Assembly: GCA_002838205.1 (NCBI GenBank)
Contig: CP017950.1
Span: 434,001-498,000 of the forward strand
Length of the DNA stretch: 64,000 bases
From: Tenericutes bacterium MZ-XQ
GTDB lineage: Bacteria > Bacillota_I > Bacilli_A > Acholeplasmatales > Acholeplasmataceae
Direction: 5' to 3'
Positions 5,030-51,208 of this stretch are shown piece after piece. The stretch's first letter is position 1. Every line of letters starts with the position of its first letter. The notes under the pieces were generated by a model. The model had not been told where the DNA came from. It worked only from the letters and a program-made list of their open reading frames with translations, and did not search any database. The position numbers and the translations under genes were made by a program.

Positions 5030-6454
5030 TTATTTTAACTGGCTCACTGAATCCTTAATTGTTTTCTCAAATGCCATTTTTCCATATTTATCGACTTGCA
5101 TCTTATCCTTAGGTCCATGACTAAGTGATCCTGGACCACCAATACATCCCCCGATACAAGCCATACCCTCAACAAAGTTTCCAATAGATATATTTTTAGA
5201 TATTTTAAATAAAGCTTTCTTACATTCTTCTATCCCATCACAAATGACAGGATTCACTTCAAAATCATGGGTTTCGTTTTCTTTAAGTGACTGCATCACC
5301 GCTTCACTTAAACCTCCAGATCTTGCGAAGATTCTACCATAATAAGAAGCATTATCTAATGGTGATTCCTCTAAAGATTCAATATCTATATGTTTACTGT
5401 CTATGAGCGCTTGAAGTTCTTCAAAAGTCATGACACTGTCAACATAAGGTTTTACTTCATCTAATTGAGATTCTTGTTTCTTTGCGATACATGGTCCAAT
5501 AAAAACAACTTTAGCTGAAGGTTCATTTTCTTTAATATACTTCGCTAAAAATGCCATGGGTGATAAATTATGAGAAACATGCTTAAGTAAATCTTTATGA
5601 TTCTTTTTGATATATGATACAAAAGCTGGACAGCAGGAACTTGTTAAAAAACCTTTTTCAACAAGTTCTTTTGTTTCTAGATCAGCAATCATATCTGCAC
5701 CTAAAGCTGCTTCTACAACACTATGAAATCCAACCTTCTTAATCGCAGTAACCACTTGACTCAAATTCACATGCGTAAATTGACTTGCAATGGATGGCGC
5801 AACAACTGCATAGATCTTATATGCTTTATTTTCATTGCTCTTTTTAAGAAGATCAATCACATTAACAATATATGATTTATCTACTATAGCTCCAAATGGA
5901 CATTGATAGACACACGCACCACAACTGATACACTTCTCATTATCAATCACTGCAACTTTATTCGAATCCATGGTGATTGCATTGACTTTACAGGCACTAA
6001 CACATGGTCTCATATGATTTGATATTGCATGATAAGGACAAACCTTAGCACATAAACCACATTCAACACATTTCGACTTATCAATGATTGCTCGTTTATG
6101 ATCATCAAAAGATATCGCTTGTTTTGGGCAAACTGAAGCACATCTATGTGCCAGACACCCTCTACAACCGCTTCCGACTTCATAACCACCAACAGGACAC
6201 TCATCACATGCAATGTCTATAACTTCAACAATATTGCTGTTTTTTGAGTCTCCACCAATGGCTAGTTTGATCCGCTCTGTTAAGATTGCTCGTTCTTTAT
6301 AGATACAACATCTCGAGATTGGTTTTTTCGTCGGATTGATCAGTTTAGGTATATCAAGCATATTTTCAAATAAAGAATCCTTAAATGCTTGGTTAGATAC
6401 CTCTTTTAACACTTGATATTTTATATATTGTACTTGTGTATCGAATTTTCTCAT
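5030..6454 (-). CDS. [FeFe] hydrogenase, group B-like monomeric type
   Basis: Iron-iron hydrogenase of 474 residues, expected to reduce protons with electrons from ferredoxin in the cytoplasm. After a Cys-containing N-terminal region (RCC, CDECPVGG, CRGC around 49-100) come ferredoxin-like clusters at C129-C139 and C175-C185, plus the CVSAC segment near 151. The H-cluster motifs are visible: L1 TSSCCPAF (C274, C275), L2 IGPCIAKK (C322) and L3 GMACIGGCIGGPG (C433, C437). Both L1 cysteines are kept, including the one used for proton transfer in well-studied enzymes. The GPCIAKK and GGCIGGPG forms fit group B rather than group A. It starts 9 bp after the phosphatase gene and is the last gene of the Rex-headed operon. 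Maturases HydE/F/G are not in the window. Confidence 0.88.
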   Translation of the reverse strand: MRKFDTQVQYIKYQVLKEVSNQAFKDSLFENMLDIPKLINPTKKPISRCCIYKERAILTERIKLAIGGDSKNSNIVEVIDIACDECPVGGYEVGSGCRGCLAHRCASVCPKQAISFDDHKRAIIDKSKCVECGLCAKVCPYHAISNHMRPCVSACKVNAITMDSNKVAVIDNEKCISCGACVYQCPFGAIVDKSYIVNVIDLLKKSNENKAYKIYAVVAPSIASQFTHVNLSQVVTAIKKVGFHSVVEAALGADMIADLETKELVEKGFLTSSCCPAFVSYIKKNHKDLLKHVSHNLSPMAFLAKYIKENEPSAKVVFIGPCIAKKQESQLDEVKPYVDSVMTFEELQALIDSKHIDIESLEESPLDNASYYGRIFARSGGLSEAVMQSLKENETHDFEVNPVICDGIEECKKALFKISKNISIGNFVEGMACIGGCIGGPGSLSHGPKDKMQVDKYGKMAFEKTIKDSVSQLK

Positions 6455-6463
6455 CTTCTACTC

Positions 6464-7633
6464 CTAAAAATAACTGACTTTTATGTTTTTCCCCATTTTT
6501 TTTAAACATGTGCTAATCTCTTCTATCAATTGCATTTTAATACTAAAATGAATGGGAAGATCTGGATTTTGATGTGCTGGATTGATTGCTTTACCGACAT
6601 AAAAATTTATATCAGTGCCCTTTTCAAATAACCATCTAGCAATCATTGATGCTCCATCTTTTTGAAAAGACCATTGATCATGCAATTTGTTTTCCCCTAA
6701 AAAATCTTTTGCATAAATCAAGACTTGATTCATCGTTATGACACCTTCTGTGACTAAATCAACACCTTCAATCTCAGCAGTTGGTGGCATATTCGGATCA
6801 TTATAGTCTAAACTTGTCTTTATGGGTTTACCTAAATATTTTGAGACGATTTGACTTGTTGTTCCACCACAAACAATTTTCTTACCCCTTTTAGAAAAGA
6901 ACAACGATAACATTTGCTGATTATCAAATTTATTTTTAGGTGGACCAATCAATAAATTTAATGGTTCTCGTTTAATGACTTTAATCATTAAACAGGAAGC
7001 ATCATCTCCAGGTTGATGATCATATAAACCCTTACATTTATTCATCATCAGATTTACCAATACTTTTGCGTTTACATGCTTTCTATTGTAATGCTTAATG
7101 TATTTTATAATGTTTTCTCTTTCCCACCCAAAATTAAGCTTAGTACCTACTCCAGCATGAACACATCCATCAGACATCGCTAAAAAACAATCTCCAACTT
7201 GTAGTTTCAACTTAGAATGAAAGATTCTTTTATTCGCAATCATCATTTCAGTCTTATAAAATTCATAATGCTCTTGATCTCTAATCAAAATAACAGAGGG
7301 ATTGTCATATTGGACAATTTCTACTTCTTCTAAATGGTTCACTCGAATTAAAGTAAATGTTGAATAAGCTACTTGTCTAACCTTGCAGGTTGGTAGTGTA
7401 TGAGCAATAGTTTCAATGCAATCTACAAGGCTCATGCCTTGTGAGATCATTGTCGATACAATTTTTGCAGTAAGTGTTGCTAAAATGGATGCCTTCACAC
7501 CACTGCCTAATCCATCAGCAAGCACATAGATGTGACTATCTTCAGTTTTTACTTCTTCAATTTGATCACCACATAATGTTTCATTATGTTTACAAATAGA
7601 AGCATATCCAACATCTAAAAATAAATCATTCAT
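6464..7633 (-). CDS. SpoIIE/PP2C-type serine phosphatase linked to hydrogenase
   Basis: Protein of 389 residues with a PP2C/SpoIIE phosphatase domain in about residues 1-220. The metal-binding motifs are seen as LADGLGSGVKA, MSDGC and PGDDAS. Residues ~225-389 form a second domain I do not recognise (starting near LNLLIGPPKNKF, with a GGTTSQIVSKYLG segment). The start overlaps the preceding sensory hydrogenase gene by 8 bp, and the group B hydrogenase follows 9 bp later, so the three are translationally tight. PP2C genes beside PAS-containing hydrogenase homologues are a known arrangement for putative sensory [FeFe] proteins. It probably relays the sensor's signal by dephosphorylating an unknown protein. 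Confidence 0.83.
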   Translation of the reverse strand: MNDLFLDVGYASICKHNETLCGDQIEEVKTEDSHIYVLADGLGSGVKASILATLTAKIVSTMISQGMSLVDCIETIAHTLPTCKVRQVAYSTFTLIRVNHLEEVEIVQYDNPSVILIRDQEHYEFYKTEMMIANKRIFHSKLKLQVGDCFLAMSDGCVHAGVGTKLNFGWERENIIKYIKHYNRKHVNAKVLVNLMMNKCKGLYDHQPGDDASCLMIKVIKREPLNLLIGPPKNKFDNQQMLSLFFSKRGKKIVCGGTTSQIVSKYLGKPIKTSLDYNDPNMPPTAEIEGVDLVTEGVITMNQVLIYAKDFLGENKLHDQWSFQKDGASMIARWLFEKGTDINFYVGKAINPAHQNPDLPIHFSIKMQLIEEISTCLKKMGKNIKVSYF

Positions 7634-41480: not shown

Positions 41481-43178
41481 ATGAGACAAATTGTAGAAAT
41501 TATTGAACCAAAACCTAAGTTTAAAGACTTTATCACGAATCAAGTGATTAGAAAGAAAAAAGTAGCTGCTTACGCTAGAGTATCTACTGATGAAACAGAT
41601 CAGCTTCACAGTTATCAAGCACAAATTGAAGAGTTTACACAAAGAATTAATAAAAATGATGAATGGGAGTTTGCAGGGATGTACTGTGATGAAGGCATCA
41701 CAGGAACGATGATGAGCAAACGCCCAGGATTCTTAAGTATGATTCAAGCAGCTGAAGATGGACATATTGATTTAATCTTAACAAAGTCCATTTCAAGATT
41801 TTCAAGAAATACCATTGATATTCTTACAGTCATACAAACCCTAAGAAATATCAATGTTGAAATTTTTTTTGAGAAAGAAAATTTATCTTCTCTTGATCCA
41901 AAGATAGACTTTATTCTAACAGTCATGTCATCCATGGCTCAAGAAGAATCAAGATCGATTAGTGAAAACACCAAGTGGGGTATTCAAAAACGATTTGAGC
42001 AAGGTAAGCTCATCATGAATACCAATCGTTTCTTGGGCTATGACAAAGATAGAGAAGGCACCTTGATCATTAACGAGGAACAAGCTAAAACCGTTAAATA
42101 CATCTTTCATAAATATTTAAATGGGATGAGTATTACAAGTCTTGCTAGACATTTAACGGATGAAAAAATTAAAAATGGACTCGGTCGTGTGAACTGGTAT
42201 TCAGATACCGTTAAAGAAATCTTAATGAATGAAAAATATGCAGGCGATTTAATGCTTCAAAAAACTGTAACTATTGATTATCTAACGCATCAAGCAGTCA
42301 TCAATGATGGTCATGCGACAAAATATTATATTAAAAATGCACATGAACCCATCATTGACCGTGAAACCTTTGATATCGTTCAAACCATGATACATGCAAG
42401 AGATGTGATTCTATCTGAAGATTCAAAAGAAAGATTTAAGCATCTTGCACATAAACCCATGAAAGGATTGGTTTACTGTTCTAGATGCCATCGTATCTAT
42501 AATTCAAAGATGCATAACTCAGGCACAACATTTAAAAAGAGTATGCTTAAATGTCATACCTCTAGAAATAATCCTCATAACTTTGATAATCCATCCATAC
42601 ATGAACCATTGATAGAACGTGCAACACTTCATGTCATTGAAAGACTCACACAAACCAAAGATATGCAAAAATCAATAATGGATTATATGAAAGAAACATT
42701 AGAACAAACCAATTCACACGAACCATTAAAAGCACTCAAACACGAATATGTTGAAATTGGTAATCAAATCAAAGCACTTTCTAAAAATCAACTTCACAGT
42801 AATATGACAGATTTAGAATATAAAAAAGAATTTAAGCGATTAGAGCAGAATCTAAAAGACACAGAGCTTAACATAGAGAACCTAACCAATCAAATCAAGA
42901 AAGAGCATCTCATGCGTAGACGCTATTATGCATTAGAATCATTTATACAAACGAATTTTCAAGATTTAAGCATCATTAAAAGCTTCTTTGGTTTAGTGCT
43001 TATGATGGGTAAACATCATGTAAGATACGTCATTGATGATACATTCTCAACCATAGATGATCTGCATTTACAAATTGATACTATAAAGAAAACACCTTCT
43101 GTTTTAGAAGGCACATATTTTGATTACATAACAAAAGAAAATATATACTACGAGGTAACCATTCATGAAGGAAATTAA
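41481..43178 (+). CDS. Large serine recombinase 1 (with zinc ribbon)
   Basis: Site-specific recombinase of 565 residues. The N-terminal resolvase domain has YARVSTDE with catalytic S35, and GITGTMMSKRPGF and TKSISRFSRNTIDILT. The recombinase domain follows, with LNGMSITSLARHL and NWYSDTVKEILMNEKYAGDL. A zinc ribbon (YCSRCHRIYN plus a later C at LKCHTSR) and a coiled-coil follow. A GGAGG ribosome site precedes the start. It overlaps the second recombinase by 14 bp, an arrangement reminiscent of paired Ccr or transposon recombinases that act together on att sites. Confidence 0.93.
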   Translation: MRQIVEIIEPKPKFKDFITNQVIRKKKVAAYARVSTDETDQLHSYQAQIEEFTQRINKNDEWEFAGMYCDEGITGTMMSKRPGFLSMIQAAEDGHIDLILTKSISRFSRNTIDILTVIQTLRNINVEIFFEKENLSSLDPKIDFILTVMSSMAQEESRSISENTKWGIQKRFEQGKLIMNTNRFLGYDKDREGTLIINEEQAKTVKYIFHKYLNGMSITSLARHLTDEKIKNGLGRVNWYSDTVKEILMNEKYAGDLMLQKTVTIDYLTHQAVINDGHATKYYIKNAHEPIIDRETFDIVQTMIHARDVILSEDSKERFKHLAHKPMKGLVYCSRCHRIYNSKMHNSGTTFKKSMLKCHTSRNNPHNFDNPSIHEPLIERATLHVIERLTQTKDMQKSIMDYMKETLEQTNSHEPLKALKHEYVEIGNQIKALSKNQLHSNMTDLEYKKEFKRLEQNLKDTELNIENLTNQIKKEHLMRRRYYALESFIQTNFQDLSIIKSFFGLVLMMGKHHVRYVIDDTFSTIDDLHLQIDTIKKTPSVLEGTYFDYITKENIYYEVTIHEGN

Positions 43179-44796
43179 AGTTATAGAAAAAAACAGTGTT
43201 AAATATGCACAAACAAGATTGAAACGCGTTGCAGCTTATGCACGCGTTTCAACCAAACTAGAAATGCAACAATCATCCATTGATTTACAAATTAAACATT
43301 ATGCCAAAGAAATTATTTTTAATCCTGATTATGTCTTTGCAGGTATTTATGCAGATCATGGCAAATCAGGAAGATCGATGGAGAAAAGAGATGGCTTGCA
43401 AAAGTTACTGAAAAAAATTAGAGCTGGACATATTGATCTAGTATTAGTTAAATCTTTGTCTAGGTTTGCTAGAAATACGGTTGATTCGCTTAAAATCATC
43501 CAAGAAACTAGAAGATTAGGTGTCGAGTTCTACTTTGAAAAGGAAGGTATCTATAGTTCAGATACAACCGTTGATATGATTTTATCCATGATGTCTGGTA
43601 TGGCTGAACAAGAATCACAATCCATGGGACAAAATATCAGTTGGGGATTTCAAAAACGTGCACAAAAAGGACAGGTTGTACTTCATAAGCTTCTTGGCTA
43701 TGAAATCACTGAAGACAAACAATATAAGCCAATTCCCAAAATTGTGCCTATTATTCAAACGATATATAAAATGAAACTTGATGGATCGGAAATGTCAGAA
43801 CTTATAGCTTACGCACAGTCACAAGACTTAAAATCAACTAAAGGACATCCAGTTGCTAATTATCAACAGATTAATAGTATCTTAAGAGATATTAGATATA
43901 CTGGTACCATTGAATATGGTAAAACGTATATGAAACATGATGGAAAAGGAAAAAGAACGATTGTTAATGATGGTGATAAACCAAAATATGTGATAAGAAA
44001 TCATCATGAAGCTATCATTGATCAGGACACTTTCCAAAAAGTACAGTCATTAATGATTAGTGAAAAAAGAACTTATGACAAAAACACAAATATACCAAAT
44101 GTATTAAGTGATTTTGTCTTTGACTTAGATAGCTATAAAACATATGATAGACCACTTGATAAGGATATAGATATAATCGATAATATGTTTGATCCTAATT
44201 ACTTAAATAACCCCCATTTTCCCAAAGGTATGAGCAAAACACTTATCCATATCCTCAAACGAAGTTTAAACGCCTTAGGACGCAAATTTAGCGACTTAGA
44301 GCCAAAGTTTGACAAACGTGTTCAGCAATTATTATCTATTGATAAAATAGATGAACAATTAAATGACTTAGGTTATATCATTAAAACGTATAAAGATAAA
44401 TATTATACATTAAAAAGAAAAGATCATAGAGATGCGGCTGAACTTTCGATGCTTAAAGATCTAGAAGATGAGATTATCAAGTTCAGTATTGATTACATTA
44501 ATATTGAAGATGAAAAGATTAAACATGATCATGCATTAAAACATGCAAAAAATCTTAAACAAAGGATTCAGTCATTTGAATATCCTTTAGAGTCATTAAC
44601 CCCTAATATGCTTCTAAGTTTCGTTAACCAGCTTGTTAAGGTTGATGAGCAAAATTATGTGTTGGTGATTAATGCAACTGGTGATATCGTATCACCTTAT
44701 AAAATTAAAAAAGCAATGACAGAAAAGCCATTGCTTGAAGGTGATTGTAAAATGCATCGTTCTAAATTGTTTAATTGGAAGATAATACTAATCTAG
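43165..44796 (+). CDS. Large serine recombinase 2 (no zinc ribbon)
   Basis: Second recombinase, 543 residues. Catalytic S29 sits in YARVSTKLEMQQSSI; the resolvase fold continues with YADHGKSGRSMEKRDGL and KSLSRFARNTVDSLKII. The recombinase domain includes NYQQINSILRDIRYTGTI. Unlike its partner it has no Cys-rich zinc ribbon; the region from ~310 on is charged and helical with a coiled-coil near 380-470. Translational coupling with the first recombinase suggests a two-protein recombinase. The 3' end overlaps the convergent DUF262 gene by 9 bp. Confidence 0.92.
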   Translation: MKEIKVIEKNSVKYAQTRLKRVAAYARVSTKLEMQQSSIDLQIKHYAKEIIFNPDYVFAGIYADHGKSGRSMEKRDGLQKLLKKIRAGHIDLVLVKSLSRFARNTVDSLKIIQETRRLGVEFYFEKEGIYSSDTTVDMILSMMSGMAEQESQSMGQNISWGFQKRAQKGQVVLHKLLGYEITEDKQYKPIPKIVPIIQTIYKMKLDGSEMSELIAYAQSQDLKSTKGHPVANYQQINSILRDIRYTGTIEYGKTYMKHDGKGKRTIVNDGDKPKYVIRNHHEAIIDQDTFQKVQSLMISEKRTYDKNTNIPNVLSDFVFDLDSYKTYDRPLDKDIDIIDNMFDPNYLNNPHFPKGMSKTLIHILKRSLNALGRKFSDLEPKFDKRVQQLLSIDKIDEQLNDLGYIIKTYKDKYYTLKRKDHRDAAELSMLKDLEDEIIKFSIDYINIEDEKIKHDHALKHAKNLKQRIQSFEYPLESLTPNMLLSFVNQLVKVDEQNYVLVINATGDIVSPYKIKKAMTEKPLLEGDCKMHRSKLFNWKIILI

Positions 44797-46692
44797 ATCT
44801 TCCACATGGTCAAATAAACTCTTAATTACTTTTTCTTTTATCTTTTCAAATCTTCTATCTAAGAATTCTATGTATGAAATCTTAAAAACATCATTAGATG
44901 ACTGATGTTCAATCCAATCAAAATCACTTTTAGTTGTAAATGTGTATTTATTTTCAATTTCAGTTATATTTAATTTTCCTAAGTAATTAATGTCATCATA
45001 AATCAGTTTGTCTTGTTTAGCGCGATTATTGTATTCTGGCAAAAGACAAAGATTTCCTATAGAACTTATTGGCAGACCTAAACCAGGTCTGTCTTTTAAT
45101 AGTGTCTTCATAAGCTTCTTAGTACAAAGATGCTCGATATCATATTTCGAACTATCAAGATGTTGTTGAGCAGTAAACTCTTGGGCATAAATGATATTTA
45201 ATATCACTTTATCAGCATCAGATGGCGCAGCAACTTTATCTCTTTCATTTCTGTTGTCTTTTGTTTTTTCATACCATAACTCAAACTCTTTTGTAAATGA
45301 AGCTATATTGTAATTTTTTATATAGTGGTCGTGTTGAGATAGCAATATATCATTTAATCGTTTATCTCCAGTACCTTTCCAAACCTCATTAAGTATATCG
45401 CTAACATAATAAGCTATTAGATTAGATTTTATTAATTTTCTATCTTCTTTCCAAGATATTTTTTTATGATTTATCAAATAAGTCGGATTTATCAATATGT
45501 TGTTATCGTCTAATTCGTATTCAACATATCTTATCTTATATGCTTGAGCAATAATTGAAACTATTTGTAACTCAGCGTGAGGAGGTGAAAAATTTTTCGT
45601 TCTTTTGTTTCCTTTAAAAGCGTAAAGCGGATTTAAAATAGGCTGTATGAACTCAATTGAATTAAGAATTTGATTTAAAAACTGATTGATATCATTATCT
45701 AAACCAACTTTTTTAATATTCTCATTCAAGTATGGCATTTCACTAGCTTTTCTCATCAAGCAAGCATTTATCAGATTAAATCCTAAACTGCTAATATCGT
45801 TAGGTTTAGTATCATTTCCAAAAATGTCTGAGTATCTGATATATAAATATTTACCAAAAGCATATCCCAGTTCAAAAACATTAAGTTTTGCATCCCGTTT
45901 AAATACTGTTGAATCATAATTATCTACTTTCAGTTTACCCTTGCCACCTAATTTGTCATATCTATCTGCAACAATTGATACCAACTCTTGCAATCTAGTA
46001 TCAGAAATTTTAATTTTATAGTTTGTCCAAGAAGCTGCATAAATCTGATATCTATTAAGTTTAGTGCCTTCTCTATTAATACGTTCAAATATAGTAGGGA
46101 GATTTGATGAATCACCTTTATAAACTAATGCTGGAATTTTTGTATCTGATAATGATTTACATAATTTTTGAAATTTCTTCATCATAGGTTGCAGTAATTC
46201 AGCAACTTTTTTTTCTTTTCCAATGAGAAATCCAAAATTCTTAGCGAGTTCATCAGCTAAATCTCTAAACTGCATACCTTGCATTGATTCCATATTTTCG
46301 TGGTTCTTTTTAATCCATTTTGTAATCTCATCATACATCTTTGATTTAATTATTTCGATAGAATTATTTATACCACCAATTTTTATTATTTCTTTTACAG
46401 CTGATTCGTCTATGTCATCATTATTAAAGTAATCTGCAGGTTTAGTAATAAAATCGTAAACTGTTATACTACGTTGAAGACCATCAATTAACTGAGTGTG
46501 GTTCTTTTCATCCTCATAAATTAATATACTTCCGAAAGGAAATCCCTTTTTAATAGAATCAATAAGTAGTCTACTTTGTTCTGGTTTCCAGACAACTCCT
46601 CTTTGAAAAGAAGGTATTGTAACTTTACCTTGTTTTACGTCATTAATCAAATCAACAGCATCGATCTCTGTTTGCTCCCAAAAATCTTTCAC
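44788..46692 (-). CDS. DUF262-family protein with C-terminal HNH-like domain (GmrSD-type)
   Basis: Large 634-residue protein. The N-terminus has the DUF262/ParB-like motifs IPSFQRGVVW, FPFGSILIYED and QLIDGLQRS. The C-terminal region has an HNH-type block: DIEHLCTKKLMKTL and SSIGNLCLLPEYNNRAKQDK. This fusion is the single-chain form of GmrSD-like (type IV restriction) and related defence proteins, thought to be nucleotide-triggered nucleases. The start is a GTG with GGGGTGA upstream. It is divergent from the NdpA/RelA-like pair (186-bp gap) and next to recombinases, as expected for island-borne defence cargo. Confidence 0.82.
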   Translation of the reverse strand: MKDFWEQTEIDAVDLINDVKQGKVTIPSFQRGVVWKPEQSRLLIDSIKKGFPFGSILIYEDEKNHTQLIDGLQRSITVYDFITKPADYFNNDDIDESAVKEIIKIGGINNSIEIIKSKMYDEITKWIKKNHENMESMQGMQFRDLADELAKNFGFLIGKEKKVAELLQPMMKKFQKLCKSLSDTKIPALVYKGDSSNLPTIFERINREGTKLNRYQIYAASWTNYKIKISDTRLQELVSIVADRYDKLGGKGKLKVDNYDSTVFKRDAKLNVFELGYAFGKYLYIRYSDIFGNDTKPNDISSLGFNLINACLMRKASEMPYLNENIKKVGLDNDINQFLNQILNSIEFIQPILNPLYAFKGNKRTKNFSPPHAELQIVSIIAQAYKIRYVEYELDDNNILINPTYLINHKKISWKEDRKLIKSNLIAYYVSDILNEVWKGTGDKRLNDILLSQHDHYIKNYNIASFTKEFELWYEKTKDNRNERDKVAAPSDADKVILNIIYAQEFTAQQHLDSSKYDIEHLCTKKLMKTLLKDRPGLGLPISSIGNLCLLPEYNNRAKQDKLIYDDINYLGKLNITEIENKYTFTTKSDFDWIEHQSSNDVFKISYIEFLDRRFEKIKEKVIKSLFDHVEDLD

Positions 46693-46878
46693 ATGATCAC
46701 CCCGAATTTCTTTAGTTTAATTAGATCATGATTTTTATAATTTGTCAAATTGCCAAGAATGGAATTACTTTTATTGATGAAAATATTCCTAAGTTTTCAC
46801 TATATTTCTTTGATAATTTGTTTTTTGAGTCATTTAGTATTATAATTATTTATAAATTAACCATTTTGGGAGGGTAAT

Positions 46879-47904
46879 ATGATTTTAGATAATCTAGTAA
46901 TAACTAGAATGATTATTCATGAAGTTTTCCAGATACCTGACAATGGAGTGAAAAAGTCTCCTGTACTTTCTAATCAACTTGTACCTTTAAACGAAAAAAT
47001 TCAAAAAGAACTATCTACAAGAATTGTCGATGTTATAAGAAAAGCTATAGAGATTAAAAAAGATGATGAAATTGAAGGTTCTTATAACCATATATTGGAA
47101 ATAAAAGATTTAGATGATAATCAATTTATAGAAAAATCTAAAATCATCGTGTCATTATTAGCTGATGCTCAAAATACAAGAATAATTAAGGACAGTGCTA
47201 TATTTGTAATGTCTGGTGAAGTTGGTTTCGAAAATCAAAAATTTTCTTGTCTAATCAAAGCTGAGTTTGACAATAGTTTTCAACCAGTTACAGAAAATGA
47301 TTCGAATGAGATCATTGGTTTAGAAGCTGTGGTTTCTTTCTTGGGGAAGGAGCAAAAATTATACAAACTTGTAGTTTTCACCCCTTCAAATAATGCATAT
47401 AAATCTTATCTCTTTGATTCAAATTTATCATTCAGAAACACTGCAAGTGCTGCCAAGTATTTCTATAAAGACTTTTTAGGAAGCGAGTTTTCAAATCAAG
47501 GTGGAGTCGCAATTCAAAATTTCAATAACCTAACACAAATATTCATTGATAGTATGTTTGACGACTATATCGATAAAATTAGGTATTTAAGTATATTGTT
47601 AGGATATATAAGAGGGACTAATAATACTTTAAGCATACATGATTTTTCTATTCAAGCATTTGACAATCCAGAGACTAGCCAAGAATATATCAACTTCATG
47701 CTAGAAAATGACTTTTTCGAGGAATCTGTCCCAAAAGACTCTGAGATAGCATCTAAAATACAAATTAAACCAAAACTTAAATTTAATAGTGGTATTTCAA
47801 TTTCAGGAAACATAAATGACATTAGTAGTAATTTAATTAGCATTAGCAAAGACGATTGTATTACTACTCTTAAAATAAGAGGAGATATCGAGGTATTGAA
47901 ATGA
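46879..47904 (+). CDS. YejK/NdpA-like nucleoid-associated protein
   Basis: Protein of 341 residues resembling the 37-kDa nucleoid-associated family (PF04245 type). The N-terminus ITRMIIHEV fits the family's opening. The middle AAKYFYKDFLGSEFSNQGG and the C-terminal FMLENDFFEESVPKDSEIAS, then a late hydrophobic-charged repeat and LKIRGDIEVLK, follow the order seen in E. coli YejK (the FLG, EESFPxDRSxL and LTIKG segments). A GGAGGG ribosome site lies before ATG. Its last four bases (ATGA) overlap the start of the RelA/SpoT-like gene, so the two are translationally coupled. Alignment is by eye; binding to DNA is inferred from the family. Confidence 0.65.
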   Translation: MILDNLVITRMIIHEVFQIPDNGVKKSPVLSNQLVPLNEKIQKELSTRIVDVIRKAIEIKKDDEIEGSYNHILEIKDLDDNQFIEKSKIIVSLLADAQNTRIIKDSAIFVMSGEVGFENQKFSCLIKAEFDNSFQPVTENDSNEIIGLEAVVSFLGKEQKLYKLVVFTPSNNAYKSYLFDSNLSFRNTASAAKYFYKDFLGSEFSNQGGVAIQNFNNLTQIFIDSMFDDYIDKIRYLSILLGYIRGTNNTLSIHDFSIQAFDNPETSQEYINFMLENDFFEESVPKDSEIASKIQIKPKLKFNSGISISGNINDISSNLISISKDDCITTLKIRGDIEVLK

Positions 47905-48887
47905 TAGAATTAGAACTGAGAGAAAAATATAATTCCCGTCAAAAATTACTTGAACTATGGGGCAACCATATTAAAGATTACGTTATTAGAAAACTAAAAG
48001 ATTTTGGTTTAGGAACTGATACTTTTTTAAAGGTTACTCCAATTGTAAGAGTTAAAAGTATTGAAAGTTTTATAGATAAAGCATTATATAGACCAGGAAA
48101 AAATTACAAAAAACCTTTAGATGATATAACTGATCAAGTTGGAACTAGATTTGTGGTTTTACTCGAAAGTGACATAGATATAGTTTTTAATATTCTAGAT
48201 AAGTCAGATCATTTTAGGGTTGAAGTCGATAGAGATTATGTAATGGATCAAATAAATTATCCCTCATTATTTGATTATGCTTCTAAACATGTACTAATTA
48301 GACCTTTGACAGCCTATAAAATAGATTCTTTTACAATTACACCAGATATTACATGCGAAGTCCAAATTCGAACGCTATTACAACATGCTTATGCTGAACT
48401 AACCCACGACTTACTTTATAAACCAAGATATTGTAGACCTGAAAGTAATCTTTATAGAGATGTTAACCGATGTATGGCTTTATTAGAAGCTACTGATAGA
48501 ACCTTTTTAGACACAAACAACAAGATTCAAGAAAATAATAAAATGTTCAAAAACATACTAGAAAAAACACGCAATATAGCAAATGAGTTAAATTTAAACT
48601 ACGTTGAAAATGATAAACTTAATATCTCAATTCTTTCAACAATTAAAACAATAGCAATGAATAAGTATGAAACCTATTTTAAAATGTATGAATCTGATAG
48701 TACATTAAAAAAAATGATTAGCTCTTTTTACAGTAAGAACAAAGACAACTATTTCTTGAACCAACCCATTATTATTTTCATTTTACTTAGCATTCAAACA
48801 AATGAAAACACATATAAAAAAATTTGGGATTATGATCCGGATTATTTGAATCAAATTTTGACTTATAGAGGTCTAACAACATTTTAA
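47901..48887 (+). CDS. RelA/SpoT-fold nucleotidyltransferase
   Basis: Protein of 328 residues with a (p)ppGpp-synthetase-like domain in ~45-180: IVRVKSIESFIDK (R50, K52), DDITDQVGTRFVV (D74/D75, R83), the YASKH segment (S128, H130) in the place of the GYxSxH motif, and CEVQIRTLLQHAYAELTHDL followed by LYK (E153, Q155, R157, H169). Catalytic-type residues are therefore present. The C-terminal 140 residues are helical and unknown; there is no hydrolase or TGS/ACT domain. Known relatives include alarmone synthetases and toxic enzymes that pyrophosphorylate ATP or tRNA. The coupled NdpA-like gene is an unusual partner. Confidence 0.82.
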   Translation: MIELELREKYNSRQKLLELWGNHIKDYVIRKLKDFGLGTDTFLKVTPIVRVKSIESFIDKALYRPGKNYKKPLDDITDQVGTRFVVLLESDIDIVFNILDKSDHFRVEVDRDYVMDQINYPSLFDYASKHVLIRPLTAYKIDSFTITPDITCEVQIRTLLQHAYAELTHDLLYKPRYCRPESNLYRDVNRCMALLEATDRTFLDTNNKIQENNKMFKNILEKTRNIANELNLNYVENDKLNISILSTIKTIAMNKYETYFKMYESDSTLKKMISSFYSKNKDNYFLNQPIIIFILLSIQTNENTYKKIWDYDPDYLNQILTYRGLTTF

Positions 48888-48893
48888 GAATAT

Positions 48894-48927
48894 AGGATAG
48901 TTTAAAAATTTGGCTATCCTTTTTTTA
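48894..48927 (+). terminator. Terminator of the NdpA-like/RelA-like operon
   Basis: AGGATAG and CTATCCT pair across a 13-nt loop and are followed by a T-run on the plus strand, 7 bp after the stop of the RelA/SpoT-like gene. The right arm overlaps the stop of the convergent gene. Confidence 0.75.
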
Positions 48928-49312
48928 TCACCCATGCTGTATAAACCGAACGATAACTACAATCCCATGTGTCAAATATGACTCCATCAATACACGCTGC
49001 TATATGCCCAGCCATTTTAAGAATATATGTTCCTTTAGGATGTAGTTTTGTAAAATTACTACCTTTAATTCTTGGTTCACCTTTAACTGGTTTAAATATC
49101 AGTCTAGGATAACCTTTTAAGTATTCATATAAGAATTGTGTATCTTTATAACTTGAGAAGCCTAGTTCTTTTTTCATTCGGTTAAGTTCTCTTTTAACTT
49201 CTAGGTAATCAGAGTTAGTTGCTGTTGTAATTGCTCTTACCACACAATCAGTTGTCTTGATACCTTTAGGATGTGCATTAAATTCTTTAAACATTGTCCT
49301 GCCACCCTTCAT
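48914..49312 (-). CDS. Papain-like cysteine peptidase-fold protein, phage/plasmid type
   Basis: Protein of 123-132 residues (start at 49312 or M7 at 49294). A possible Cys-His-Asp triad is seen in TTDCVVRAITTATNSDYLEV (Cys), MAGHIAACIDG (His) and IFDTWDCSYRSVYTAWVI (Asp). This pattern occurs in small papain-like proteins of phages and plasmids. Its substrate is unknown. It overlaps the upstream gene by 26 bp and is therefore co-expressed with it. Confidence 0.6.
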   Translation of the reverse strand: MKGGRTMFKEFNAHPKGIKTTDCVVRAITTATNSDYLEVKRELNRMKKELGFSSYKDTQFLYEYLKGYPRLIFKPVKGEPRIKGSNFTKLHPKGTYILKMAGHIAACIDGVIFDTWDCSYRSVYTAWVIKKG

Positions 49313-49721
49313 TAAACCAATTAACTAACTCCTTGATTGAATCCGTATTGTAAAGTGGTGTATCAAAATTGTTTTTCTTACCATAAATTGTATATCGCTT
49401 TTCTTCTCTAAAACAGTTGATTTGAATGGTAAATAGTGTATCACCAGATTCTATATCAGCAATTCTAAAGTCATCATATAAAGATCCGGCAAGTGGACAG
49501 TTATTTTTGAACCATACATACATTGTTTCAAGATTAACTTTTCCACCGTCTTTAAATTGTTTAACAATGTTGCCCATGCGCTTTGTTTTGTTTACAAGAC
49601 TTTCATCTTTACAAAACCAATCATACCAACCAGCTTTAATTTGTGTTTGTAAATCTTTTGAGTCGAATTCACCTTTGTTAAATGATTCGATCCATGTTCT
49701 TAAACTTTGTTCTTTACTCAT
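49287..49721 (-). CDS. Hypothetical protein, accessory-region type
   Basis: Protein of 144 residues with AAGGAG upstream of its ATG. No known motif is evident; it is rich in Trp and charged residues (WYDWFCKDE, MYVWFKNNCPLAGSLYDDF) and looks soluble. Its 26-bp overlap with the papain-like gene marks them as a pair. Function unknown. Confidence 0.6.
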   Translation of the reverse strand: MSKEQSLRTWIESFNKGEFDSKDLQTQIKAGWYDWFCKDESLVNKTKRMGNIVKQFKDGGKVNLETMYVWFKNNCPLAGSLYDDFRIADIESGDTLFTIQINCFREEKRYTIYGKKNNFDTPLYNTDSIKELVNWFNEGWQDNV

Positions 49722-50191
49722 AAGTCTATAATCTCCTTATAATTTTTTGGTTACTATATATATCACTCTAAAGGATAATAATAGCAACCCAAGAAACTCA
49801 CTAAAGTGTACTATTCATATGATTAATTACAAAAAGTAAAGAAAAGACTGCTCTAAGCAATGGGACAAGGTCAAAACATCGTATTCATTATCATTTATCG
49901 TATATTCCAACAAATAATGACAGCTAACCGTAATTAAGAGATTATAACCGTTTTTATATACACAAGTTCTCACTCATTCCTTTCAAACCACATAAGACTC
50001 AAAATCTTGAATGAGTATATGATATATAAGTAAATTTTTCACTTTAATTTTTTCAACTATGGCTCTATTTAGCTCATAAGTATATATCATGTTTAAAAAT
50101 ATGCATGGAATTGAAACCTATGGATTAAAAACATTAAAAAAGACAAGTTTTTCACTCATCTTAATAGTTTTTACAAATATTGATGTAATAG
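49722..50191. other. Non-coding spacer of accessory region
   Basis: About 470 AT-rich bases with no gene I can support. A convergent-looking set of short frames is not coding. It precedes the possible structured RNA described next. Confidence 0.35.
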
Positions 50192-50299
50192 ATGTCAAGC
50201 GCTGCATAAGGATGACATAGTAATCGACAGTTCACTGTCCAAGGTCAAGGTGCCGACGCATAATTCACCGCAAAAGTCAAGTAAATAATGACTTTTTTT
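50192..50299 (+). ncRNA. Possible small structured RNA with terminator
   Basis: Four successive hairpins lie in ~108 bp that is more GC-rich than its surroundings: ATGTCA/TGACAT (50192-50218), GACAGT/ACTGTC (50226-50239), GGTG/CACC (about 50250-50271) and AAAAGTCA/TGACTTTT with a T-run (50272-50299). The last is a good plus-strand terminator although no plus-strand gene ends there. No known RNA family was recognised. It could be an sRNA or a cis-acting leader of the following AbiEi-like gene. Confidence 0.35.
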
Positions 50300-50527
50300 C
50301 TCTTTATTAAGACGTTTAGTCACTACGATTTTCATAACAAAATACATTGGTTTCATAACAACAACATAACAAAGCACAGTTCTCTAAATCACATTGTTCA
50401 TGCATGTTTTTGTAAATCACTGGTTTTCAACGTGTCAAGACGATATATCATTTTACGTTTTCAGTATAAAGGGTATTTTATAAAATCTATTATTTTGGTA
50501 TCATATTATGACAAGGACGTGATCAAC

Positions 50528-51208
50528 GTGAATATAACAAGTGAAGTGAAAGAAATAATCCTGCAGCTGCCAAAGAATCAGCTATTCAATTCAAGAGAAA
50601 TTTACGAAAGATATTTTATAGATTTTTGTATGGAATCGACTTATTCTAAAATTATAAACCGCATGCAGAAAGATGAACTAATTATTATGTTTCAAAAAGG
50701 TATCTTTTATCTCCCTAGATATCGAAATGGAAAACGCGTTAATATTAGACAATATCAAATCAAATCATTTATCTTCTCTAACAATAACGATGGCACTCTA
50801 GTAGGTGATGGATTATATTATCGGTTAAAGTTATCTAAGGTTATTGCTAAAGAGTATCTATATTATACAAATCGAATAGACGAGCTATCAAAGAAAATCG
50901 GTAACGCAAGATTCTTATTCTTGCCTTTTGATTTTGATCCTACTACAACTTCTATTATTCAGCTCATGGATGTTCTATGTGGATTTCATAAAATAGCAAA
51001 CATTGATCTAGACCAGTTTCATCAATTTTTAGATTCATCTGTTAAACTTTATGAAGACATAGCATTTTATGAGATCCATAAAATTATGAAGTATCCAAAA
51101 CATGTAATTGCATTCTTAAAAACCGTACTCGATCATTTTGGTATTGATAATGTTCTTGAGAGGTATTTATCTACAAGAAGTATCTATAAGATTCCTGATT
51201 GGAAATAA
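50528..51208 (+). CDS. AbiEi-like (type IV antitoxin family) DNA-binding protein
   Basis: Protein of about 226 residues from a GTG at 50528 with AAGGA ten bases upstream; the frame is open further upstream but those codons look non-coding. The N-terminal winged-helix region (LFNSREIYERYFIDFCMEST, KIINRMQKDELIIMFQKGIF) is followed by the AbiEi/DUF6088-like block (GTLVGDGLYYRLKLSKVIAK, YYTNRIDELSKKIGNARFLF). The C-terminal half, ~110 residues, is helical. These proteins repress their own toxin operon, but no AbiEii-type nucleotidyltransferase follows, so it is an orphan here. Confidence 0.65.
   Translation: MNITSEVKEIILQLPKNQLFNSREIYERYFIDFCMESTYSKIINRMQKDELIIMFQKGIFYLPRYRNGKRVNIRQYQIKSFIFSNNNDGTLVGDGLYYRLKLSKVIAKEYLYYTNRIDELSKKIGNARFLFLPFDFDPTTTSIIQLMDVLCGFHKIANIDLDQFHQFLDSSVKLYEDIAFYEIHKIMKYPKHVIAFLKTVLDHFGIDNVLERYLSTRSIYKIPDWK

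Follow-up and report, generated by a model that had tools for sequence, protein, structure and literature searches.

A mobile pair of a YejK-like protein and a RelA/SpoT-type synthetase as a candidate anti-phage module

The gene pair and its cargo slot

The window, the whole stretch of 64,000 nucleotides of Tenericutes bacterium MZ-XQ DNA analysed here, carries two linked genes on its plus strand. P1 (46879..47904) encodes a 341-residue protein that was assigned to the YejK/NdpA family (PF04245) by a family alignment, an AlphaFold2 model and Foldseek, and P2 (47901..48887) encodes a 328-residue protein that combines a RelA/SpoT-type (RSH) synthetase domain (PF04607, residues ~50-174) with a C-terminal half. 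The end of P1 and the start of P2 share the letters ATGA, exactly as a preliminary description of this DNA had claimed. GGGAGGG (46868..46874, plus strand), four bases 5' of the ATG at 46879, is the likely ribosome-binding site of P1. A 9-bp hairpin with a T-run (48894..48926, plus strand; -11.2 kcal/mol, fold z -3.7) is the probable intrinsic terminator of the unit. It is the sole candidate for the common terminator proposed earlier, but it is missing from the output of the strict terminator scan, because its loop is too long.

The recombinase-bearing surroundings and the adjoining DUF262 gene that had been described for this region were both recovered. Two serine recombinases (41481..43178 and 43165..44796, plus strand) form the conserved left flank of a cargo slot; the former is 98% identical in the sister genome G001 and 65-74% identical in two further genomes (G002 and G004), and the latter was recognised from its open reading frame and the comparison with the sister genome. 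A DUF262/GmrSD_N protein (44788..46692, minus strand; PF03235, 4.8e-26) lies as a cargo neighbour between the recombinases and P1. The window sequence is 94% identical to G001 as far as 44790 and 87% identical again from 48926 onwards, with unrelated sequence in between. This exchangeable segment (44791..48925, to which no strand applies) holds DUF262 and P1-P2 in the window and is replaced in G001 by ~1.3 kb of other sequence with an unrelated open reading frame, exactly behind the second serine recombinase, the G001 sister genome being 94-98% identical around the replaced segment. In two other relatives, homologous recombinases are followed by yet other genes. The region 41481-51208 is likely an exchange element for defence cargo.

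Because the segment is swapped in the sister genome, DUF262 and P1-P2 are co-resident cargo. We discarded DUF262 as a possible third component: it shares the cargo segment, but was not seen next to the pair at other loci, whether in annotated or in scanned neighbourhoods. Only P1-P2 is a conserved unit within the window cargo. The pair is absent from the four other genomes of the window's genus, and no effector gene (SLATT or patatin) adjoins it in the window.

Further side observations concern the same region. Each of four genomes in the genus holds different content in the slot behind the two serine recombinases (window 41481-51208), and sister genomes have a tyrosine recombinase upstream of these two genes. 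At 50288-51208, the window encodes a 306-residue protein that matches AbiEi strongly (3.9e-36) and has a shorter counterpart in G001 and no AbiEii-like gene beside it among the listed open reading frames.

Identity of the two proteins

Taken alone, the P1 protein of the window has no match in Pfam, PADLOC or NCBIfam and no convincing PDB-sequence match, and its membership in the YejK/NdpA family is established via its homologues and its fold. PF04245 is matched at 1e-3 or better by 71 of the 73 aligned P1-family members. Homologues beside P2-like genes are annotated as 'nucleoid-associated protein' and match this family (NA37) at 1e-11 to 1e-18, with scores of 65 and 64 bits against a cut-off of 24.6. 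The AlphaFold2 prediction for this protein, based on the family alignment (mean pLDDT 89.4, pTM 0.81), has a single significant Foldseek match among solved structures, E. coli YejK (PDB 9be2, E 2.5e-7), to which it aligns with Z 14.2 over 295 residues at 13% identity; the rmsd of 9.3 suggests a domain shift. The NdpA/YejK likeness that had been read from the order of several segments is hence upheld at the level of family and fold. According to the title of the published YejK structure, as cited in PMC12040237, this protein is a novel DNA binding clamp.

P2 matches PF04607 (RelA_SpoT) over residues 50-174 (6.1e-14, 52.7 bits against a cut-off of 27), which agrees with its earlier reading as a synthetase. 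The Pfam search returned no other family and no HD hydrolase domain, marking P2 as a small synthetase. Its C-terminal half proved as unfamiliar as first described: no Pfam or sequence match, the pZFD antitoxin domain included, was found there, and the single-sequence fold model reaches a pLDDT of only 38. The nearest solved structures are small synthetases of the RelQ/RelP type, which the synthetase domain matches at 1e-15, versus 1e-3 for the solved toxic CapRel. We discarded a PADLOC match of P2 to GajB (1e-4) as chance, since it falls in a helical part and is not common to the homologues tested. Two PF04607 proteins are encoded in the single-contig, 2.157-Mb genome of the host, P2 and a 733-residue open frame, the latter presumably the housekeeping Rel.

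The catalytic motifs of RelA/SpoT enzymes, namely RxKxxxS, DxxGxR, the G-loop tyrosine and ExQ, are present in the P2 family. Invariant in 78 homologues are R50, K52, K60, D78, R83, H130, E153, Q155, H162, E166, H169, D170, Y173 and K174; Y126 is a tyrosine in 77 of them, the serine of RxKxxxS is kept in 68, and position 157 is R or K. Among the synthetase residues named in the preliminary description, R50, K52, E153, Q155 and, with this exchange, R157 were therefore well chosen, but position 74 varies (N, D, E, K or T), and the alignment identifies D78 instead of D74 as the homologous catalytic aspartate. In FaRel2, the donor-phosphate, Mg and G-loop residues are R64, K66, S70, K74, D90 and Y128 (PMC11782079), and the P2 arrangement of RxKxxxS...K, D and G-loop tyrosine matches them. 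As its active-site residues are invariant and arranged in the same way, P2 is very probably an active pyrophosphotransferase.

Conservation, distribution and neighbourhood of the pair

Scanning genome contigs with P2-only patterns yielded 119 relatives, 80 of which were kept, and P2-only searches of viral contigs added 78 loci. In a sample biased towards the clade of the query, P1 lies directly upstream of P2 in 79 of 79 genome loci with upstream sequence, remnants included (74 full-length copies, three cut by a contig end and two remnants, L016 and L078), and the same holds on viral contigs for all 69 of the family members whose upstream sequence is available, a few of which have shortened or frame-shifted P1 copies (L099, L100, L130 and L165). 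With these loci, the test of conserved adjacency that the preliminary description had set for itself turns out strongly positive. The 4-bp overlap is found in 56 of 78 cases, and the distance matrices of P1 and P2 correlate with r 0.93, a value reached in none of 999 permutations, none of which exceeded 0.16. Adjacency at such a rate is beyond any chance process, and the pairing is real and obligate. A P1-only scan of the genome contigs found nothing.

In the window's phylum, 9 of 392 genomes have any match at 1e-25, and eight of these belong to a solitary RSH family (L089-L098). Like P2, its members have a RelA/SpoT domain and ~350 residues and occur in this phylum, and the three that we tested match the PADLOC candidate PDC-S33; unlike P2, they have no YejK-like gene beside them and reach only ~1e-30 against the P2 profile. 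We rejected them as members of the module on account of the missing partner and the much weaker scores. An orphan RSH gene in a Mycobacterium abscessus prophage (L193:3941-4960), located beside a holin gene and without P1, scores like this family against the P2 profile.

Carriers of the pair belong to at least nine phyla (Pseudomonadota, Bacillota, Bacteroidota, Mycoplasmatota, Verrucomicrobiota, Planctomycetota, Kiritimatiellota, Thermodesulfobacteriota and Rhodothermota), which are intermixed in the tree. In E. coli, inspection located it in at least 5 of 5426 complete genomes, with CEC15 as a probable, uninspected sixth; these counts, from a DNA-level search, are lower bounds. Three of the E. 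coli copies occupy thrW islands adjoining an integrase, one sits in an integrase island behind guaA, and that of L725 resides in a prophage resembling phage P2, where an ogr-like gene and the late-control D gene flank it. Plasmid-borne copies also exist. On one viral contig the pair is placed inside a phage tail operon, between the major tail and tape-measure genes, and further copies have helicase-loader, replication or HNH endonuclease genes nearby. A further copy was noticed in an apparent Mu-like prophage region of Neisseria gonorrhoeae (L004:6928-8974), where P2 is frame-shifted and P1 open; intact copies occur elsewhere.

About one in eight systems has an added gene for a SLATT protein with two transmembrane segments, while most lack it. 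This SLATT/DUF4231 gene stands immediately upstream of P1 in enterobacterial, vibrio-type and oceanospirillum-type systems, which make up a large gamma-proteobacterial clade, and separate cases were seen in L162, where it precedes the pair, and in L125, where it follows. The SLATT label changes ~3-4 times on the P2 tree, and the module acquired the gene at least two to three times. A single system, in Hymenobacter (L077), has a patatin-like phospholipase gene (5830-6870) 23 bp upstream of the YejK-like gene, possibly an alternative membrane effector for the module. SLATT proteins with two transmembrane segments are typical of nucleotide-signal immunity, and SLATT and patatin proteins alike are typical receivers of nucleotide-type signals. 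Phage defence by DRT10 requires SLATT proteins, which are predicted pore formers (PMC12632851). In L060 the pair follows an HsdS gene and precedes an open reading frame that, by eye, is HsdR-like, and the immediate neighbours, 150 in all, repeatedly include, by raw count, integrases, restriction helicases and matches to helicase or restriction models of PADLOC. On viral contig L101 a BRCT-domain protein (5997-6914) is encoded 1 bp upstream of the pair.

Proposed function and relation to known systems

The pyrophosphate that RSH synthetases take from ATP goes to the 3'-OH of GTP/GDP, of adenosine nucleotides or of tRNA, and several of these enzymes, such as CapRel and FaRel2, serve phage defence. 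We propose, with moderate confidence, that P1 and P2 form a mobile conflict module of two genes, most likely directed against phages, in which P1 ties P2 to DNA or nucleoid state and P2 arrests growth. The overlap and co-inheritance of the genes argue that both proteins work together, probably as a complex, and the nature of the partner, a DNA clamp, suggests control of P2 by DNA or nucleoid state. P1, made from the same message, would hold P2 ready and couple its activity to this state; a phage that disturbs DNA or nucleoid would cause P1 to release or activate P2, which would then move pyrophosphate from ATP to an acceptor 3'-OH and thereby stop growth or translation as an abortive switch. 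SLATT and patatin genes entered the module on more than one occasion, and for this reason we slightly favour a free purine nucleotide as acceptor, with an alarmone-type product, over the 3' end of tRNA. In the systems with SLATT or patatin the nucleotide product would also signal and open the membrane effector, and in the window system, which has none, P2 would act directly.

We infer the defence role, the acceptor, the sensing by P1 and the gating of a membrane protein from several lines of evidence: the obligate pairing, the conserved active site, the mobile and prophage context, the SLATT and patatin genes, the HsdS and HsdR-like neighbours and a transcription unit reported by DefensePredictor (Science 2026, PMC13092281), which bears a YejK nucleoid-associated domain and was validated as protecting E. 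coli against phage. Counting against this proposal are the likeness of the synthetase domain to housekeeping RelQ/RelP rather than to toxic CapRel, which makes a non-toxic metabolic role of P2 possible, the low pLDDT of the P2 model, the many systems without SLATT and locus L078. More tentatively, the module could form a separate class of nucleotide-signalling immunity, in which a YejK-type clamp senses a phage-induced change of nucleoid or topology and switches on an RSH enzyme, whose alarmone-type product would arrest growth and, in the SLATT and patatin versions, gate the effector.

The overlapping operon with its non-enzymatic gene in front and the near-perfect co-inheritance could also indicate a toxin-antitoxin pair of the toxSAS type, since RSH toxins with neutralisers are known (PMC11782079); P2 would then be constitutively toxic by pyrophosphorylating tRNA or ATP, P1 would only neutralise it, and phage defence would be a by-product or absent. 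We regard this as possible but doubtful. The YejK-like P1 proteins (341-365 residues) are unlike the toxSAS antitoxins named in the literature we read, namely alarmone hydrolases and pZFD domains, and a search beside P2 for a known toxSAS antitoxin family found a PF04245 protein instead. SLATT and patatin partners would be left unexplained. Moreover, L078 retains an intact P2 next to a P1 that has lost ~270 N-terminal residues, and because most of P1 is gone there, its role as an essential partner or antitoxin fits poorly, which weakens the plain-antitoxin reading.

The SLATT genes of the gamma-proteobacterial clade, of L162 and of L125, together with the patatin gene of L077, may point to a CBASS-like layout, in which P1 senses, P2 makes a messenger and a separate effector, at times encoded elsewhere, does the killing. 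This appears unlikely, as most systems, that of the window included, have no adjoining effector gene; in the window operon neither a CD-NTase, P2 being an RSH synthetase, nor a nucleotide-gated effector was found. Quite improbable, finally, is a non-defensive role in housekeeping or element stability, in which P1 and P2 would adjust alarmone level or DNA topology to serve the replication, partition or lysogeny of a mobile element. It would suit the carriage by prophages and integrative elements, the nature of YejK as a nucleoid protein and the closeness of P2 to RelQ/RelP. However, the very patchy distribution with wide phylum hopping, the restriction and defence genes among the neighbours and the defence reported in the main text on the YejK unit (PMC13092281) speak against it.

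If the regulator of the proposed anti-phage module is a nucleoid protein, a widespread gene pair would link alarmone chemistry to DNA state, and mobile YejK-like proteins annotated only as 'nucleoid-associated protein' would be given a function. Whether phage takeover of the nucleoid is itself sensed would become directly testable, and systems with SLATT could be used to ask if alarmone-type products can act as second messengers in immunity. To our knowledge, RSH enzymes in immunity have so far been found only with small antitoxins or fused antitoxin domains. The preliminary description had called the system undescribed, and no description of the pair appeared in the papers that our literature search covered; the unit of DefensePredictor, as presented in its main text (PMC13092281), may nevertheless be the same module, whose function would thus already be shown.

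Several known systems share single features with the module. P1 has the fold (295 residues, Z 14.2) and PF04245 membership in common with E. coli YejK/NdpA, which is a chromosomal nucleoid protein, whereas P1 is mobile, tied to a synthetase gene and only 13% identical. Kiwa KwaB, the next plausible Foldseek row, aligns weakly with the N-terminal ~135 residues of P1 (Z 5.4); Kiwa has KwaA, which was not seen with P1, a P1-KwaB sequence match is absent, and we rejected homology, as Z ~5 over the N-terminal part only is in the range of chance resemblance or common arrangements. CBASS and DRT10 likewise combine SLATT or patatin genes with an enzyme whose product is a nucleotide or nucleic acid, but this enzyme is a CD-NTase or a reverse transcriptase, whereas P2 is an RSH enzyme with an optional effector that is absent in the window. 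ToxSAS (FaRel2/ATfaRel2, PhRel and FaRel) and CapRelSJ46 likewise consist of a small RSH synthetase without hydrolase in an overlapping two-gene or fused unit, and are likewise mobile, theirs being linked to anti-phage immunity. Their partner, however, is an alarmone hydrolase or a pZFD antitoxin, while that of P2 is a YejK-like protein of ~350 residues, and P2 itself is nearer to RelQ/RelP than to CapRel in its synthetase domain and matches no family in its C-terminal half. The DefensePredictor unit, compared here by its YejK domain only, with partner genes given outside the main text (PMC13092281), has this domain in common with P1. P1-P2 itself falls among the RSH-based conflict modules.
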